Origin: Chloroflexota bacterium
Lineage (GTDB): Bacteria; Chloroflexota; UBA11872; VXNJ01
Length of the DNA stretch: 64,000 nt
Direction of reading: 5' to 3'
Assembly: GCA_009840625.1 (NCBI GenBank)
Contig: VXNJ01000014.1
Location: forward strand, 64,907-128,906
Shown here: positions 53,497-60,525 of the stretch, in pieces
Position numbering within the stretch: position 1 is the first letter of the stretch
Layout: each line of letters starts with the position of its first letter
Notes under the pieces: model-generated
Databases searched by the model: none
Told to the model about the DNA's origin: nothing
Seen by the model: the letters and a program-made list of their open reading frames with translations, nothing else
Program-made: the position numbers and the translations under genes

Positions 53497-54672
53497 ATGT
53501 CCTTCCTGACCGCCAACAATCGCCCGCGCGGAGTCGCAAGAGTCCTTTTCTGCGCCGACGTGAGGCTGGGCGACGCACCGCTCTGGCTGCCCTCCAAACA
53601 GCGTCAATCCGCGTTGCTCGAGCGCCGTCTTGCGTTCGGGGCGGTAGTCAACGCAGCCACCCAGAGTCCGGCCGACGGCCTGGTGATCTGCGGCGGGTTA
53701 TTCAGCCGCTACGATCCTCAACCGGCCGAAATCGCGGCCGCCGCGGCCGGCCTGGAGACTTTGCGCAACGCCGGGATTTCCTGCTACGCGATCCACGCTC
53801 CGGACGAGATCCCCCCGGAAGATTCGCTTTCGGGACTGGAGCTGCTTTCCCGATTGGGATTGATCGAATGCGTCGAATCCAAAGTGGGGACTCGGGTATT
53901 TGACCTGCGGGGCCTGCGCGTGGCAATGACCGCGCTCGTCGCAGATCCCTCCCTGCGCGGGAATCCGCTGCGAAAGCTCAATTTCGCAATGGCCGGCGAT
54001 GTCCACGTATTGCTCGCGCGCGCCTCGGTCGAGCGGCTGGCTCCGGCGGGGGTGAACGGACCCATCATCGATTCGGATTCGATCAATGCCCTGACCGGGG
54101 TGAGCCTGCTGGTGGCCGGCGGAAGTCCGAGGCCGCAGCGCCTGAAGGCCAAGAAAACGACGGTGATCTCGCCCGGGGCCCCCCTGCGTCCGGCTCCGGA
54201 TGGCGGATTTGCCAACGTCACCTTTGGAAAAAACGGGGTCCTCGAGGTCCAATTCGAATCCGGCGTCGGCTTGCCGGCCGGCGAGGTTCTGGTGCCCGCG
54301 AGCCTCCTGGAGACGCAAGACGCCAATACCCAGATCCGGCGCATGCTGGACGAGGCTTCGGTCGGCTCCACCGAAGTGACGATGCGGGTATACGGTCGCA
54401 CCGCAGCGCCGGTCCTGCGCGAAGCGGGCCTGTCCGAATTGTGCGAATACGGACGCTCGCTTACCGCCCGCTTCAGTCTGGATGTCTCGGGCCTGCTGAC
54501 GGTGGAGGAACCTGAAGACTGCGGACGCGGGCCGCTGGCGGTCGTCGAACAGATCGAAGAGCTCTTGGAAGCAGATGATTCGACGTGGCGCAGCTCCGAG
54601 GAGCGGATTGCCGCACGCAGTGAAGTCGGGGCCTTGTTGCGCACCGCCCGGGGAATCGGCGGCATGGCGTGA
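53497..54672 (+). CDS. Mre11/SbcD/YhaO-like metallophosphoesterase-fold protein, metal site lost
   Basis: The 391 residues follow the layout of bacterial YhaO-type DNA repair exonucleases. But each metal motif is altered: DxH reads ADVRLGD, GDLFD reads GGLFSRYDP, GNHD reads HAPDEIP, and no GHxH motif is visible. It is therefore unlikely to be a nuclease. ATG at 53497 is chosen because the fold begins at ARVLFCAD; the frame is open to 53350. It overlaps the Rad50-like gene by 4 nt (GTGA), so the two surely act as a pair. Confidence 0.72.
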   Translation: MSFLTANNRPRGVARVLFCADVRLGDAPLWLPSKQRQSALLERRLAFGAVVNAATQSPADGLVICGGLFSRYDPQPAEIAAAAAGLETLRNAGISCYAIHAPDEIPPEDSLSGLELLSRLGLIECVESKVGTRVFDLRGLRVAMTALVADPSLRGNPLRKLNFAMAGDVHVLLARASVERLAPAGVNGPIIDSDSINALTGVSLLVAGGSPRPQRLKAKKTTVISPGAPLRPAPDGGFANVTFGKNGVLEVQFESGVGLPAGEVLVPASLLETQDANTQIRRMLDEASVGSTEVTMRVYGRTAAPVLREAGLSELCEYGRSLTARFSLDVSGLLTVEEPEDCGRGPLAVVEQIEELLEADDSTWRSSEERIAARSEVGALLRTARGIGGMA

Positions 54673-57149
54673 TCACAATCGCGCGATTGCGGATTCGCAA
54701 TTTGCGGGCCGTGACCGACTTCGATCTTCGTATTCCGATGCGGGGCCGCTTCCTGGTAGACGCTGCCGCCGGCATGGGCAAGACCAGCATTGTCCTGGGA
54801 CTGCGACTGGCGCTCACCGGAACGGTACCCGGATTGGCGATCGGCGACATCGTCCGTTCGGGGACCGATTCGGCCCGGGTCGAACTGGAACTTAGCGACG
54901 GACGCGACCGCCTGCGGCTGCGACGCACGTTTTCGCGGACCGAGCAGAGCGCGTCCGTCCTTTTCTCACGCGGACTGGGCGAGATTCGGGCCGACGACCC
55001 CGACCAGGTCGCGGCGTTGCTCGGCGAGTTCTTCGCGTACCCACCGGACCAAATTGGCGATTTCTTCCTCTGGAGCTGGCCCCACAACATCCAGCAAACG
55101 ACGCTCGCGGCCGATCGCGGTTATCTCCACCGGGCCGCCGCCAAGCTGACCGGAGACTCCGACCTGGAGCGGGCCATTGCCTCGGCCCGCGGCGCGGTAA
55201 AGCGCGGCCACGACTCCAAGCGCCACCGCGAACTAGTGGCCCGCCGACTCAGATTGCTGCGCGATTGGGCCGGCCAGGCGTTGGCGGTCATCGCGCCGGC
55301 GCTTGCATCGGCGCGCGAGGAAGCCGGATCGGTACGGGCTGAGCTGGCCCGCCTGCAACGGCAACTGACCGAAGTCGAAACTCTCGGCAAATTGGGGGGA
55401 CGCTCCGGCCAGATCTACGCCGCCGCCGGTCAGATCATTGAGCAGTCACATACCCTGGACCGCGCCTGCGCCCGCCTGCGATTGCTGCACGACATGGCGA
55501 CCGAGCCCGACGGCGGCGAATCGGAACTAATCAAATTGCGCGCGCGAGCCAATCGATTGCGCAGCGCCCGCGAGTCGCTGACCGAGGCGATTTCGCTGGA
55601 ATCCCGGGGCGCCGGTGAGGCAGTCGATCCCGGTTCGACCACCGGTGCGATGCTCTCCAGATTGGTCGATTTGCGCGACGGAAAAGCGGTTTCCGAACCG
55701 GCGCGGCGGGCCTATGCCCGCTGGTGCCGGTTGAGCGAGCAAATCAGCATCGCGGCGCCGGCTGGAATCGCGTCGCGGTTTGCGCTGGGCGGCGCCGGCG
55801 GCGAGGATCCGGTTCGCCTCAAGGCTGAACTGCGGATTCTCGAGCGCGAGATGGCGCGTCAAGGGATTGACGTCCCGGCCACGCTCGACCAGGCCAGGCA
55901 ACTGGCCGCCGGCGAGGCTGGGGAGGCGATAGCCGACCTCGAGGAAATGCTGCGCGCGCCAACTGCGGTTGAAGACCCCGGCACCGGCGGCGACCATGAC
56001 GATTTCGCCGAGCGAGCCGCGGCGCTGCGCGATCGGGCGACCACCATGCTCTTCGGGCTGGACCTGCCGCTGGACCTGCCGCAAATCGAACGCAGCCTGA
56101 CCGCCGCCGAGACCGAAGTCGCCCGCCTGGAACACATGGCAAATGACCCTCCAGCGCTGATAGCCCACACCCAGGAACTCGAATCCGAGATAGCCCGGAT
56201 CCGGGCGCTGCTCGAAAAAGGGCGCGAACAGCTGTTGCAGCTTGCGCCGGAAGAAGGGTTCGAGGACTTTGAGCTGGACTTGGACCGAGTGGCGGCGCTA
56301 CGCAAATCAGTCCTGGAAGACAGCGGCGGCCGCGACGCGGTCGAGGTCCCCTCCAACCCGGCGCTGGAGCGGCGTCTCTCGCACGCTCGGCAGCGGGCCG
56401 CCCGCCTTGACGAGAAGGTGATCGCGTTGGAGACCGACGCCAAGGAGGCCGCCGGCGTCCTGGACTTGGAACTGGAACCGGCGCTGATCGAGGCACGGGA
56501 CCGCAAGGCGGATGAATCTCGCAAGCGCCAGTTGGAAGCCGAGTTGGAAGGTGTGGAAGGCGAACTGGAGCGGCTCGACGATTCGTTGCAGATCATCACC
56601 GACGGCGACACCGGACCGCTGGTTGAGGCAGACATCGGACAAGCCGAACTAAATCTGACCCGGCTTCAACAGCGACAGCGGATTCGGGCCAAGCTGGCCG
56701 CGACTCTGCGCGGAATGGATTCGACGCTGGCCAATCGTGCTGCCAATCGGACCCTGCAGAACGCGCGCAACCTGCTGCCGGAACTGAGCGGCGGCCAGTT
56801 CTTTGACCTCCGCGTCGCCGCCGACGGCTCAATCGAACTTTGGGAAGAATCGACCCGCAGCTGGATCGGCGCGGCCCAATGCGGCAGCGCGGTTTACGAG
56901 CAGACGTCGCTGCTCCTATGGTTGGCGCGCGCATTGACCCACGGAGCGCCGGGGATGGTCGGCATACCCGGATTCTGCGTGTTGGATGACCCCGGCGCCC
57001 TCACAACCGAACGACTGCGACAGCTCCTGGCGGACTCGTTGGTGCGCAATCCGATGCTGGATTCGATCCCGCAGATCTTGGTTCTCAGTGAGCGGTCCGC
57101 CTTCGCCGAGGCCGGATTCAGCCGGCTGCATTCGCTTGGTCCGAATTAA
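54669..57149 (+). CDS. Rad50/SbcC/YhaN-like coiled-coil ATPase with degenerate motifs
   Basis: An 826-residue SMC-type ATPase: N-terminal head lobe (IARLRIRNLRAVTDFDLRIP), long coiled coils (about residues 180-690) and C-terminal head lobe. Walker A reads AAAGMGKTS, keeping GKT but losing the first Gly. Walker B ends VLDDPGA (Asp for Glu). The signature LSGG before the last helix is replaced by AQCGSAVYEQ, though an LSGGQ lies earlier at LLPELSGGQFF. There is no CxxC zinc hook. GTG start overlaps the Mre11-like gene. ATP binding may persist, but hydrolysis is doubtful. Confidence 0.75.
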   Translation: MITIARLRIRNLRAVTDFDLRIPMRGRFLVDAAAGMGKTSIVLGLRLALTGTVPGLAIGDIVRSGTDSARVELELSDGRDRLRLRRTFSRTEQSASVLFSRGLGEIRADDPDQVAALLGEFFAYPPDQIGDFFLWSWPHNIQQTTLAADRGYLHRAAAKLTGDSDLERAIASARGAVKRGHDSKRHRELVARRLRLLRDWAGQALAVIAPALASAREEAGSVRAELARLQRQLTEVETLGKLGGRSGQIYAAAGQIIEQSHTLDRACARLRLLHDMATEPDGGESELIKLRARANRLRSARESLTEAISLESRGAGEAVDPGSTTGAMLSRLVDLRDGKAVSEPARRAYARWCRLSEQISIAAPAGIASRFALGGAGGEDPVRLKAELRILEREMARQGIDVPATLDQARQLAAGEAGEAIADLEEMLRAPTAVEDPGTGGDHDDFAERAAALRDRATTMLFGLDLPLDLPQIERSLTAAETEVARLEHMANDPPALIAHTQELESEIARIRALLEKGREQLLQLAPEEGFEDFELDLDRVAALRKSVLEDSGGRDAVEVPSNPALERRLSHARQRAARLDEKVIALETDAKEAAGVLDLELEPALIEARDRKADESRKRQLEAELEGVEGELERLDDSLQIITDGDTGPLVEADIGQAELNLTRLQQRQRIRAKLAATLRGMDSTLANRAANRTLQNARNLLPELSGGQFFDLRVAADGSIELWEESTRSWIGAAQCGSAVYEQTSLLLWLARALTHGAPGMVGIPGFCVLDDPGALTTERLRQLLADSLVRNPMLDSIPQILVLSERSAFAEAGFSRLHSLGPN

Positions 57150-57204
57150 CCCGGCAACGCCCCGTCACCTGCGGGGAGCCGTCGTCCGCGTTCGGAGTTG
57201 AACA

Positions 57205-57645
57205 GTGCAGGCGACTGAACTGCAGGCGCTGGCGCGTCAACCGCGGCGGTTTGCCGGAACGCGACTGCCAGGGCCGCCGATCCGCCGGTTCGCGCGGGCG
57301 ATTCCCTGTGCGGTCGCAATCGGTGCGGCTGCATTCGTCGCGGTCGCAATCGTTCTGCTCCTGATCGCCGATCCCGAGCTGCCGGTGACCCAGCTCGCGT
57401 TTTACGCGGCATCTTTGGTCGCCGGATTTTTGGCGGGACTCGCCGCCGCCTGCCGATGGGCAAATCGACGCGGCGCAGTTGGCCCTCCCTGGCGAGAAGG
57501 GATATTTGCCGGAATGGCCGTGGCCGGGGCGACCGGGCTGGCGTTCGCCGGGCTGCGATTGGGCCTGGGCGTCTTTTGGCCGCTGCCGCCGTCCCTGTTG
57601 CTGGCGGGACTGGCGGTTGCCGGTTGGCGCAATCGACGCACCTAA
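57205..57645 (+). CDS. Small multi-pass membrane protein of unknown function
   Basis: A 146-residue protein with four predicted hydrophobic helices (about residues 31-55, 64-86, 98-118, 122-140) separated by short Arg/Pro-rich loops. Not recognised. GTG start, 55 bp after the Rad50-like gene on the same strand, so it may belong to the same transcript. The N-terminal 30 residues are basic and lie inside by the positive-inside rule. Confidence 0.65.
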   Translation: MQATELQALARQPRRFAGTRLPGPPIRRFARAIPCAVAIGAAAFVAVAIVLLLIADPELPVTQLAFYAASLVAGFLAGLAAACRWANRRGAVGPPWREGIFAGMAVAGATGLAFAGLRLGLGVFWPLPPSLLLAGLAVAGWRNRRT

Positions 57646-59301: not shown

Positions 59302-59710
59302 TCAAGGCAGCGCCGGATTCAAATCGAATGCTGGAATGCCGATGGCGCCGGCAGCGTCGAGCAATCGCAGATCGTAGCTTGCCAGCGAAATCCGCTGGCC
59401 GCGCCCAGAGAGGTAATCGCACGTCGCAAGGTGAAATGCGTCCACCGTCCTCACTGCCGTTGCCCCGGGGTATGGCTCCAGCGCGCGGGCCAGTACCCGG
59501 TCGTTCAGGCTGACGAACGCGATTCTCTCGATCAGAGCCGCGCCGATTCCCCGCAACGCTCGACAAATCCGCGCCGGTTCAGCGTGATCCAGACCTCGTG
59601 CTCCAACAGCCGGCTGGAGAACAGACGATTGCGCCAGAGAGAGAGTCGCTGGGGCGCAGATCTTCAGCGAGGAGGTAGGCCAGTGCGACGGACGAATCCA
59701 AATAGATCAA
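59302..59710 (-). pseudogene. PIN-domain toxin (VapC-like), broken by two frameshifts
   Basis: Reading leftward from TTG 59710 (overlapping the antitoxin stop), the product begins LIYLDSSVALAYLLAED, a PIN-domain N-terminus with its first acidic residue. It runs into a stop in its first frame after a (CT)5 tract near 59636-59645. The next frame continues the family (RNRLFSSRLLEHEVWITLNRRG), then a second shift near 59540 leads into ALIERIAFVSL..VRTVDAFHLATCDYLSG and SYDLRLLDAA, the C-terminal half with the other acidic residues. All three pieces are colinear. The toxin is thus either a recent pseudogene or carries sequence errors. Confidence 0.75.
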
Positions 59711-60000
59711 CGGTTGCCGCGCGTCTCATCCAATTCGGCCATGACCTCGTCAAATTTCATAACAGCCGCAGGCCTTGGCGGTGCCGTAGTTGCGGGCAGC
59801 AGCGGAGGAGTGATATCGCCGGCCCGCACAGCTTCGGCCAGGAGCGCGTCCGCCAGCATTGGGCTGCGCGTTTTCAGCGGCGGACCAAGTTCGGCAACTA
59901 TGCGATCCCGGTCAGTGACCAGCACCGTTTCGCCGCTGGCGGCGAGCCGAACATATTCGCTTAGGCGACTGTTGAGTGTTTTTATCCCTACCGACCTCAT
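59707..60000 (-). CDS. Phd/YefM-type antitoxin
   Basis: A 97-residue DNA-binding antitoxin. MRSVGIKTLNSRLSEYVRLAASGETVLVTDRDRIVAEL is the classic Phd/YefM fold, with a C-terminal tail that would neutralise the PIN toxin. Open and intact from ATG 60000. Its stop overlaps the toxin TTG (TTGA). Confidence 0.85.
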   Translation of the reverse strand: MRSVGIKTLNSRLSEYVRLAASGETVLVTDRDRIVAELGPPLKTRSPMLADALLAEAVRAGDITPPLLPATTAPPRPAAVMKFDEVMAELDETRGNR

Positions 60001-60525
60001 GTCCGCATGGTAGCGACCGGTAGCTAATTGCGCCTTTTTCGATCCAGATTGTTGAACGCGGCGGGCTTTTCGAATCGCTCGCCGGGCATTTGCGAAACTG
60101 CGAGCTTCCGGCCGATCGATAACCAAAAAGCCCGGCAAAGCGAAGCCGATGAACTGATTGCCGCGAACGGCCGTTCCGGGCTATTGGGCCCAGGCAGATC
60201 ACCTGACTTGGCGTTATCCGAGAGCACACAAAACGGGCCCAGGGTAATTGAATGGAGCGCGAACTCGACAGATCGCACTCGAGGAACGGGTTCCAATATT
60301 CCCGTTCCCCTTCACGAGAACAGTTTTTTGATGCGCCCGCTGGAACCGGTGAAGGGGAACGGTTTAGGGGCGGTTGGCCGAAGCAAGCAGTACGCTGCCC
60401 GACGAGTCAGGCCCCCATTTCTTCAGAGCGAGCAACCCCACACGGCATGGACCCGCCTCTCAGCAGCTGGAATCTTCATCTTCCGTTGTTCGAACTCAGG
60501 GCAGCTGCTAGGCCTTAGCCAACGC
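60001..60525. other. Intergenic stretch with no supported gene
   Basis: About 525 bp between the antitoxin and the next membrane protein. Reading frames here lack family-like composition. The only structure seen is the pair of competing inverted repeats at 60283-60362. Confidence 0.5.
60283..60362. repeat. Overlapping inverted repeats with mutually exclusive pairing
   Basis: 60283-60290 (GGAACGGG) pairs with 60301-60308 (CCCGTTCC). 60302-60315 (CCGTTCCCCTTCAC) pairs perfectly, over 14 bp, with 60349-60362. The middle arm can join only one partner at a time. A TTTTTT run lies between the second pair at 60323-60329. This could be an attenuator-like RNA or a remnant of a mobile element. Confidence 0.5.

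Follow-up and report, generated by a model that had tools for sequence, protein, structure and literature searches.

An Mre11-Rad50-type gene pair with degenerate nuclease and ATPase sites, retained beside a small membrane-protein gene in an order of Chloroflexota

What does a lineage keep when it keeps a DNA-break machine but not the catalytic sites of either of its subunits? Mre11-Rad50 is a near-universal machine of this kind, and the relative shares of enzymatic and structural work in what it does have long been debated. The question is raised by a locus of a Chloroflexota bacterium (assembly GCA_009840625.1), located in a stretch of 64,000 nucleotides (VXNJ01000014.1, positions 64,907 to 128,906), referred to below as the window, that is part of contig 14 of a 2.27-Mb genome. 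Here a gene for an Mre11-like protein is followed by one for a Rad50-like coiled-coil protein, and then by an open reading frame (ORF) for a small membrane protein. The first protein still has the Mre11 fold. Throughout the order to which the organism belongs both sites are degenerate, the genes remain coupled and in the same order, and it is in this dead-enzyme lineage that the membrane protein was added to the operon. The three genes probably encode a non-catalytic, membrane-associated scaffold derived from an Mre11-Rad50-type complex.

The two frames of the pair are long and clean, and they are translationally coupled through four shared bases, GTGA, in which the stop of the first gene coincides with the start of the second; the membrane ORF begins after a further 55 bp. 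This layout is as given in a first-pass annotation that had been made from the sequence alone. In library searches the first protein matched Mre11 models (E 1.7e-4) and the second matched AAA_23 (E 1.6e-4) and Rad50 (E 4.9e-6), values that are weak but specific. Modelled with AlphaFold from a 27-row alignment, the first protein reached a mean pLDDT (predicted local distance difference test) of 86 and a pTM (predicted template modelling score) of 0.75, and its top PDB matches in Foldseek were all Mre11, with E about 1e-15 to 1e-11, revealing the Mre11 phosphoesterase fold together with its capping domain. The model of the second protein (pLDDT 74) combines long coiled coils with an ATPase head that is split, and matches Rad50, SMC and MukB chains. 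The agreement between family models and structure models indicates that the pair is genuinely Mre11/Rad50-like.

The active sites present a different picture. Alignment to intact relatives shows that, of nine metal-binding or catalytic residues, the window pseudonuclease keeps a single one, the motif I Asp; the histidines of motifs IV and V are absent, and the protein does not carry the dinuclear metal site set (DxH, GD, GNHD, H, GHxH). The first-pass annotation had assigned it the layout of SbcD/YhaO nucleases with every metal motif lost, of which the layout and the degeneracy stand, but the wording was slightly too strong, since the first Asp remains. In the partner, the ABC ATPase set of Rad50 (Walker A, Q-loop, signature, Walker B Glu and H-loop) is likewise incomplete, Walker A being kept in part, as GKT, and the rest altered. 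An LSGGQ string does occur in the protein, but it was rejected as the ABC signature, being a coincidental match at a position that aligns with LTxGRY of relatives. No zinc hook CxxC was found in the window Rad50-like protein, and the active relatives are also without one at the apex, save for a single CEAC in one of them, so that its absence is an old trait of the branch and not degeneration. The earlier description of the ATPase thus holds for the altered Walker A, the Asp in Walker B, the degenerate signature and the missing hook, though the loss of the hook is not specific to this lineage.

Is this a peculiarity of one genome? The pair is present in all 24 genomes examined of the window's order, which comprises two families, f1 (the window and genomes G001-G004) and f2 (19 genomes). 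The nuclease site is degenerate in every genome in which it could be read, G004 and G018 having parts on broken contigs that allow their nuclease motifs to be read only in part, and none has an intact set. Remnants persist in f1, namely a GKS/GKT P-loop wherever the N-terminus is present, the motif IV His in three members and the GD Asp in two; f2, by contrast, has lost the nuclease site along with the P-loop, Q-loop, signature, Walker B and H-loop, and two sampled pairs gave no convincing match to a Pfam family. Elsewhere in Chloroflexota, about 45 relatives (within the same class, families f3 and f5; beyond it, other classes, that of G052 being represented by one genome) encode the same pair with nuclease and ATPase motifs largely intact. 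Named relatives, from a contig scan that employed the f2 profile alone, the whole-order profile being too diverse, are Chloroflexota metagenome-assembled genomes, several with bin names of a kind associated with marine sponges, the presumed habitat. Relatives with intact motifs, which the first-pass annotation had named as evidence of a mutated or miscalled sequence, thus occur solely in other families and classes, while within the order the sites are degenerate throughout and the pair stays with its membrane protein, as that annotation had proposed to verify. A miscalled or frameshifted gene was rejected on the grounds that the frames are open and the order coupled in 24 genomes.

A number of individual loci deserve mention in their own right. 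Outside the order, the second copy in G144 (L239, G144:C26:18642-19937) carries the nuclease losses TAGNRLG, GGVLDT and GYHQ with intact ATPase motifs, a loss that is apparently independent of that in the order. On a contig filed as Planctomycetota (L179:153-1800), a pseudo-Rad50 N-terminus is followed in-frame by TPR-like repeats, reflecting either a true fusion or chimerism of the contig. In G006, a genome in a single contig, the first part of the pseudo-Rad50 ORF (L114:5868-9827) lies in a different frame than in relatives, through a sequencing error or a real frameshift.

Genes without activity could simply be decaying, and they do evolve faster than housekeeping genes. Ratios of nonsynonymous to synonymous substitution rates (dN/dS, Nei-Gojobori) were obtained from genera g5 and g6 and, for f1, the family of the window, from its only close pair, G002/G004 (g3). 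Median pairwise values for the pseudonuclease were 0.24 in g5 and 0.30 in g6, and for the pseudo-ATPase 0.24 and 0.22, respectively, in comparison to 0.27 for active Mre11 relatives (n=3). For G002/G004, the ratio was 0.27 for the pseudonuclease and 0.36 for the pseudo-ATPase, as opposed to 0.11 for the membrane protein, while two neighbouring housekeeping genes gave 0.02-0.06. Both genes are therefore under purifying selection, with dN/dS of about 0.2-0.4, near that of active relatives and far from the value near 1 by which the earlier claim of selection would have fallen. In addition, the frames are open and coupled in essentially all 24 genomes and the genes are kept across the order. Decay was rejected for the order by these ratios, and has next to no chance of being the right explanation.

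The manner in which conservation is distributed over the pseudonuclease is also informative. Most of the former catalytic columns, invariant in active forms, are free to vary in f2, with an entropy near 2 compared to a mean of 1.39. Within g5 and g6, conservation is higher over the C-terminal helices than over the second half of the core, the reverse of what is seen in active relatives. This is the pattern expected if catalysis had been dropped and a partner interface kept; that these helices form such an interface is suggested by their position in Mre11. The same data bear on the idea that the pair is a changed enzyme, still active as a nuclease or ATPase by means of catalytic residues that have moved elsewhere in the protein. 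The single metal-site Asp and the GKT of the window proteins would suit such an enzyme, as would the Walker A retained by several f1 members and the motif IV His retained by three; however, no other conserved set of metal-binding residues has taken the place of the original one, most former sites vary above average in f2, and that family is entirely without a P-loop, all of which makes a surviving activity very improbable.

If the complex is inactive, its relationship to the active complexes of the same cell becomes of importance. In a tree of Mre11 proteins, the order's Mre11-like proteins form one clade (support 97/90), while canonical SbcD proteins of the same genomes fall in a separate, distant one. 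The dead clade is placed as sister to all active members, but its grouping with active members from its own class was not rejected by an approximately unbiased (AU) test (p 0.18), and the sister position may consequently be a long-branch effect, in which case the dead and active forms could be orthologous. The genome of the window also encodes the second, canonical pair for which the first-pass annotation had suggested a search, and in fact two such pairs, both on contig 10: an intact SbcCD at about 85-89 kb, whose zinc-hook motif is CPVC, and, at about 241-245 kb, a YhaO/YhaN-like pair that is likewise intact and whose YhaN-like protein has a mid-coil transmembrane hairpin. The possibility that the window pair is the genome's own SbcCD or YhaON was thus rejected, given the separate clade and the intact copies elsewhere. 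The presence of both intact complexes, together with the kept Mre11 fold, evokes a regulatory decoy that would mix or compete with them and limit their nuclease activity, and live enzymes are often regulated by dead paralogues (PMC5201418). The distance that separates the dead clade from canonical SbcD in these genomes speaks against such an arrangement, and the retention of both halves with a membrane partner of their own exceeds the needs of a simple inhibitor; a decoy is accordingly regarded as unlikely, albeit not far-fetched.

The dead lineage also has a membrane partner. A profile search found the family of this protein directly after the Rad50-like gene in 22 of the 22 other order genomes whose contig reaches that far, and in several g6 genomes its frame begins right at the stop of that gene. 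The same search found it beside no active relative, among which the f3, f5 and G052 loci reach well past the ATPase gene and some others do not. The window protein displays four hydrophobic segments and lies at the expected position, as the first-pass annotation had described, and the family that it weakly matches is genuine in the 22 other genomes; library searches with the 146-residue protein itself gave no convincing match. A second link to the membrane is found within the coiled coil, where one or two hydrophobic segments of the transmembrane type lie mid-coil, at the position of the zinc hook, in f2, in G002 and G004 and in most active relatives.

The active relatives L206-L239, L062 and L068 have one or two such hydrophobic mid-coil segments in place of a zinc hook, and the widespread Mre11-Rad50 type that they represent in Chloroflexota is probably membrane-anchored.

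What, then, could be held at the membrane? In f2, genes for DinB/Pol IV, a Y-family polymerase, and for DUF4130 lie closely upstream of the pair (L059:11058-13155, with equivalents in g5 and g6), possibly forming a repair operon with it. A scaffold of the membrane or cell envelope that has no DNA role, in which SMC-like rods would serve as spacers or cytoskeleton, could account for the transmembrane hairpin, the membrane partner and the acidic heads, and would be in keeping with the methyltransferase gene that follows the membrane protein across the order. The window pair has no such gene next to it, and the rest of the window genome showed no clear ortholog. The f2 operon and the DNA-repair ancestry of the pair argue in the opposite direction, and an envelope role devoid of DNA is rather improbable.

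A non-catalytic, membrane-associated scaffold remains the reading that we favor. In such an assembly, the pseudonuclease would still bind the base of the Rad50-like coiled coils via its C-terminal helices, but the complex would no longer cut or run an ATPase cycle, although in f1 it may still bind ATP via the kept GKS/GKT. The small membrane protein would hold the assembly at the membrane, as in most members would a transmembrane hairpin in the coiled-coil apex, resulting in a fixed scaffold that would most plausibly tether chromosomal DNA or repair proteins to the membrane. A DNA-holding role fits the DNA-repair ancestry and the f2 operon. The more specific proposal of a structural, membrane-embedded SMC-like scaffold, in which both enzymes are dead and a new membrane subunit has been gained, and which every examined member of the order would have kept for fastening DNA or repair enzymes to the membrane, is put forward tentatively, at somewhat less than an even chance. 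Several observations weigh against the favored reading. The heads and the pseudonuclease are neutral to acidic, the f2 heads being more acidic than in active relatives, such that charge lends no support to DNA binding, nor to the DNA tethering or sensing that the first-pass annotation had suggested as a new role. The window membrane protein matches its family weakly (hhalign E 6e-4, probability 29%; hmmsearch 5.5 bits), the window Rad50-like protein has no transmembrane hairpin, a trait it shares with G001 and G003, and the repair-gene neighbours were found in f2 and not in f1, the family of the window.

Comparison with characterized systems helps to define what is distinct about the locus. 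With Mre11-Rad50 and SbcD-SbcC, the pair shares both subunit folds, adjacent genes, a coiled-coil architecture and C-terminal helices at the Rad50-binding site, but it is without the full metal ligands, ABC signature, H-loop and zinc hook, and forms a clade apart from the genome's own SbcCD. With YhaO-YhaN (SbcF-SbcE) and the intact Chloroflexota relatives it has in common the gene order, the overlap and a large SMC-like partner; however, the LSRGT-type signature and the intact nuclease and ATPase motifs of YhaO-YhaN are missing from it, as is the mid-coil hairpin of the genome's YhaN-like protein, and no four-helix membrane gene was found beside the active family members. Precedents for the loss of activity do exist. 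The B-subunits of eukaryotic polymerases contain an inactivated Mre11-like (calcineurin-like) phosphoesterase that has lost its metal site and has been described as a scaffold (PMC4996933), a case of a nuclease of the Mre11 superfamily turned scaffold, although within polymerases and with neither a Rad50 partner nor a membrane link. A family of archaeal PolB is conserved though inactivated (PMC2527604), and is similarly a selected, apparently dead DNA enzyme in a clade of its own, but it is a different enzyme, and here the loss affects both subunits of a machine made of two enzymes. Lamassu LmuB, Wadjet JetC and other SMC-like defence ATPases are distant SMC/Rad50 kin of the window ATPase; unlike these, the window pair has no effector gene and occupies a fixed chromosomal place in its family. 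Matches of the ATPase in PADLOC were marginal (mad8 2.6e-3, PtuA 6.8e-3), and a phage-defence system of the Lamassu or Wadjet type was rejected on account of these values and of the non-effector neighbours. Searches of open-access papers, which make up only a part of the literature, brought up no account of a conserved Mre11-Rad50 pair in which both members are inactive.

The neighbours in question are hisC-like, pyrophosphatase and aminotransferase genes. The hisC-like and pyrophosphatase genes, upstream of the pair, are kept in place in f1, which speaks for vertical inheritance. Near the locus, on the minus strand (window 59302-60138), small genes resemble, as judged by eye, a Phd-type antitoxin followed by a PIN-domain fragment. 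The features of the locus are listed in Table 1.

Table 1. Genes and sequence motifs of the locus, in window coordinates
Feature	Position	Strand	Basis
Mre11-like pseudonuclease gene, 391 amino acids, ATG start	53497..54672	+	ORF, family models, AlphaFold/Foldseek
Degenerate metal motif I, ADVRLG (intact ADNHLN); DxH to DVR, Asp kept	53554..53571	+	Alignment
Degenerate metal motif II, GGLFS (intact GDLFD); GD to GG	53692..53706	+	Alignment
Degenerate metal motif III, HAPDE (intact: GGNHD region)	53794..53808	+	Alignment
C-terminal helices at the Rad50-binding position of Mre11, residues 346-390	54532..54666	+	AlphaFold secondary structure
Rad50-like coiled-coil pseudo-ATPase gene, 826 amino acids, GTG start	54669..57149	+	ORF, family models, structure matches
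Altered Walker A, AAAGMGKT, GKT kept (intact GRNEAGKS / GxNEAGKS)	54762..54785	+	Alignment
LSGGQ string, residues 706-710, at the LTxGRY position of relatives	56784..56798	+	Position in alignment
Degenerate true signature site, CGSAVYEQTS (intact SGGTQDQFS)	56880..56909	+	Alignment
Walker B FCVLDD, catalytic Glu to Asp (LDD for LDE)	56973..56990	+	Alignment
H-loop position, His to Glu, LSERS (intact ISHSQ)	57090..57092	+	Alignment
Small four-helix membrane protein gene, 146 amino acids, probable third subunit	57205..57645	+	Four hydrophobic segments; position in order

A lineage that is without both activities, and in which the complex is nonetheless still selected, would constitute a natural separation-of-function experiment. 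The locus also draws attention to the widespread relative of this complex in Chloroflexota, which is probably anchored to the membrane by a hairpin at the position where others carry their zinc hook.

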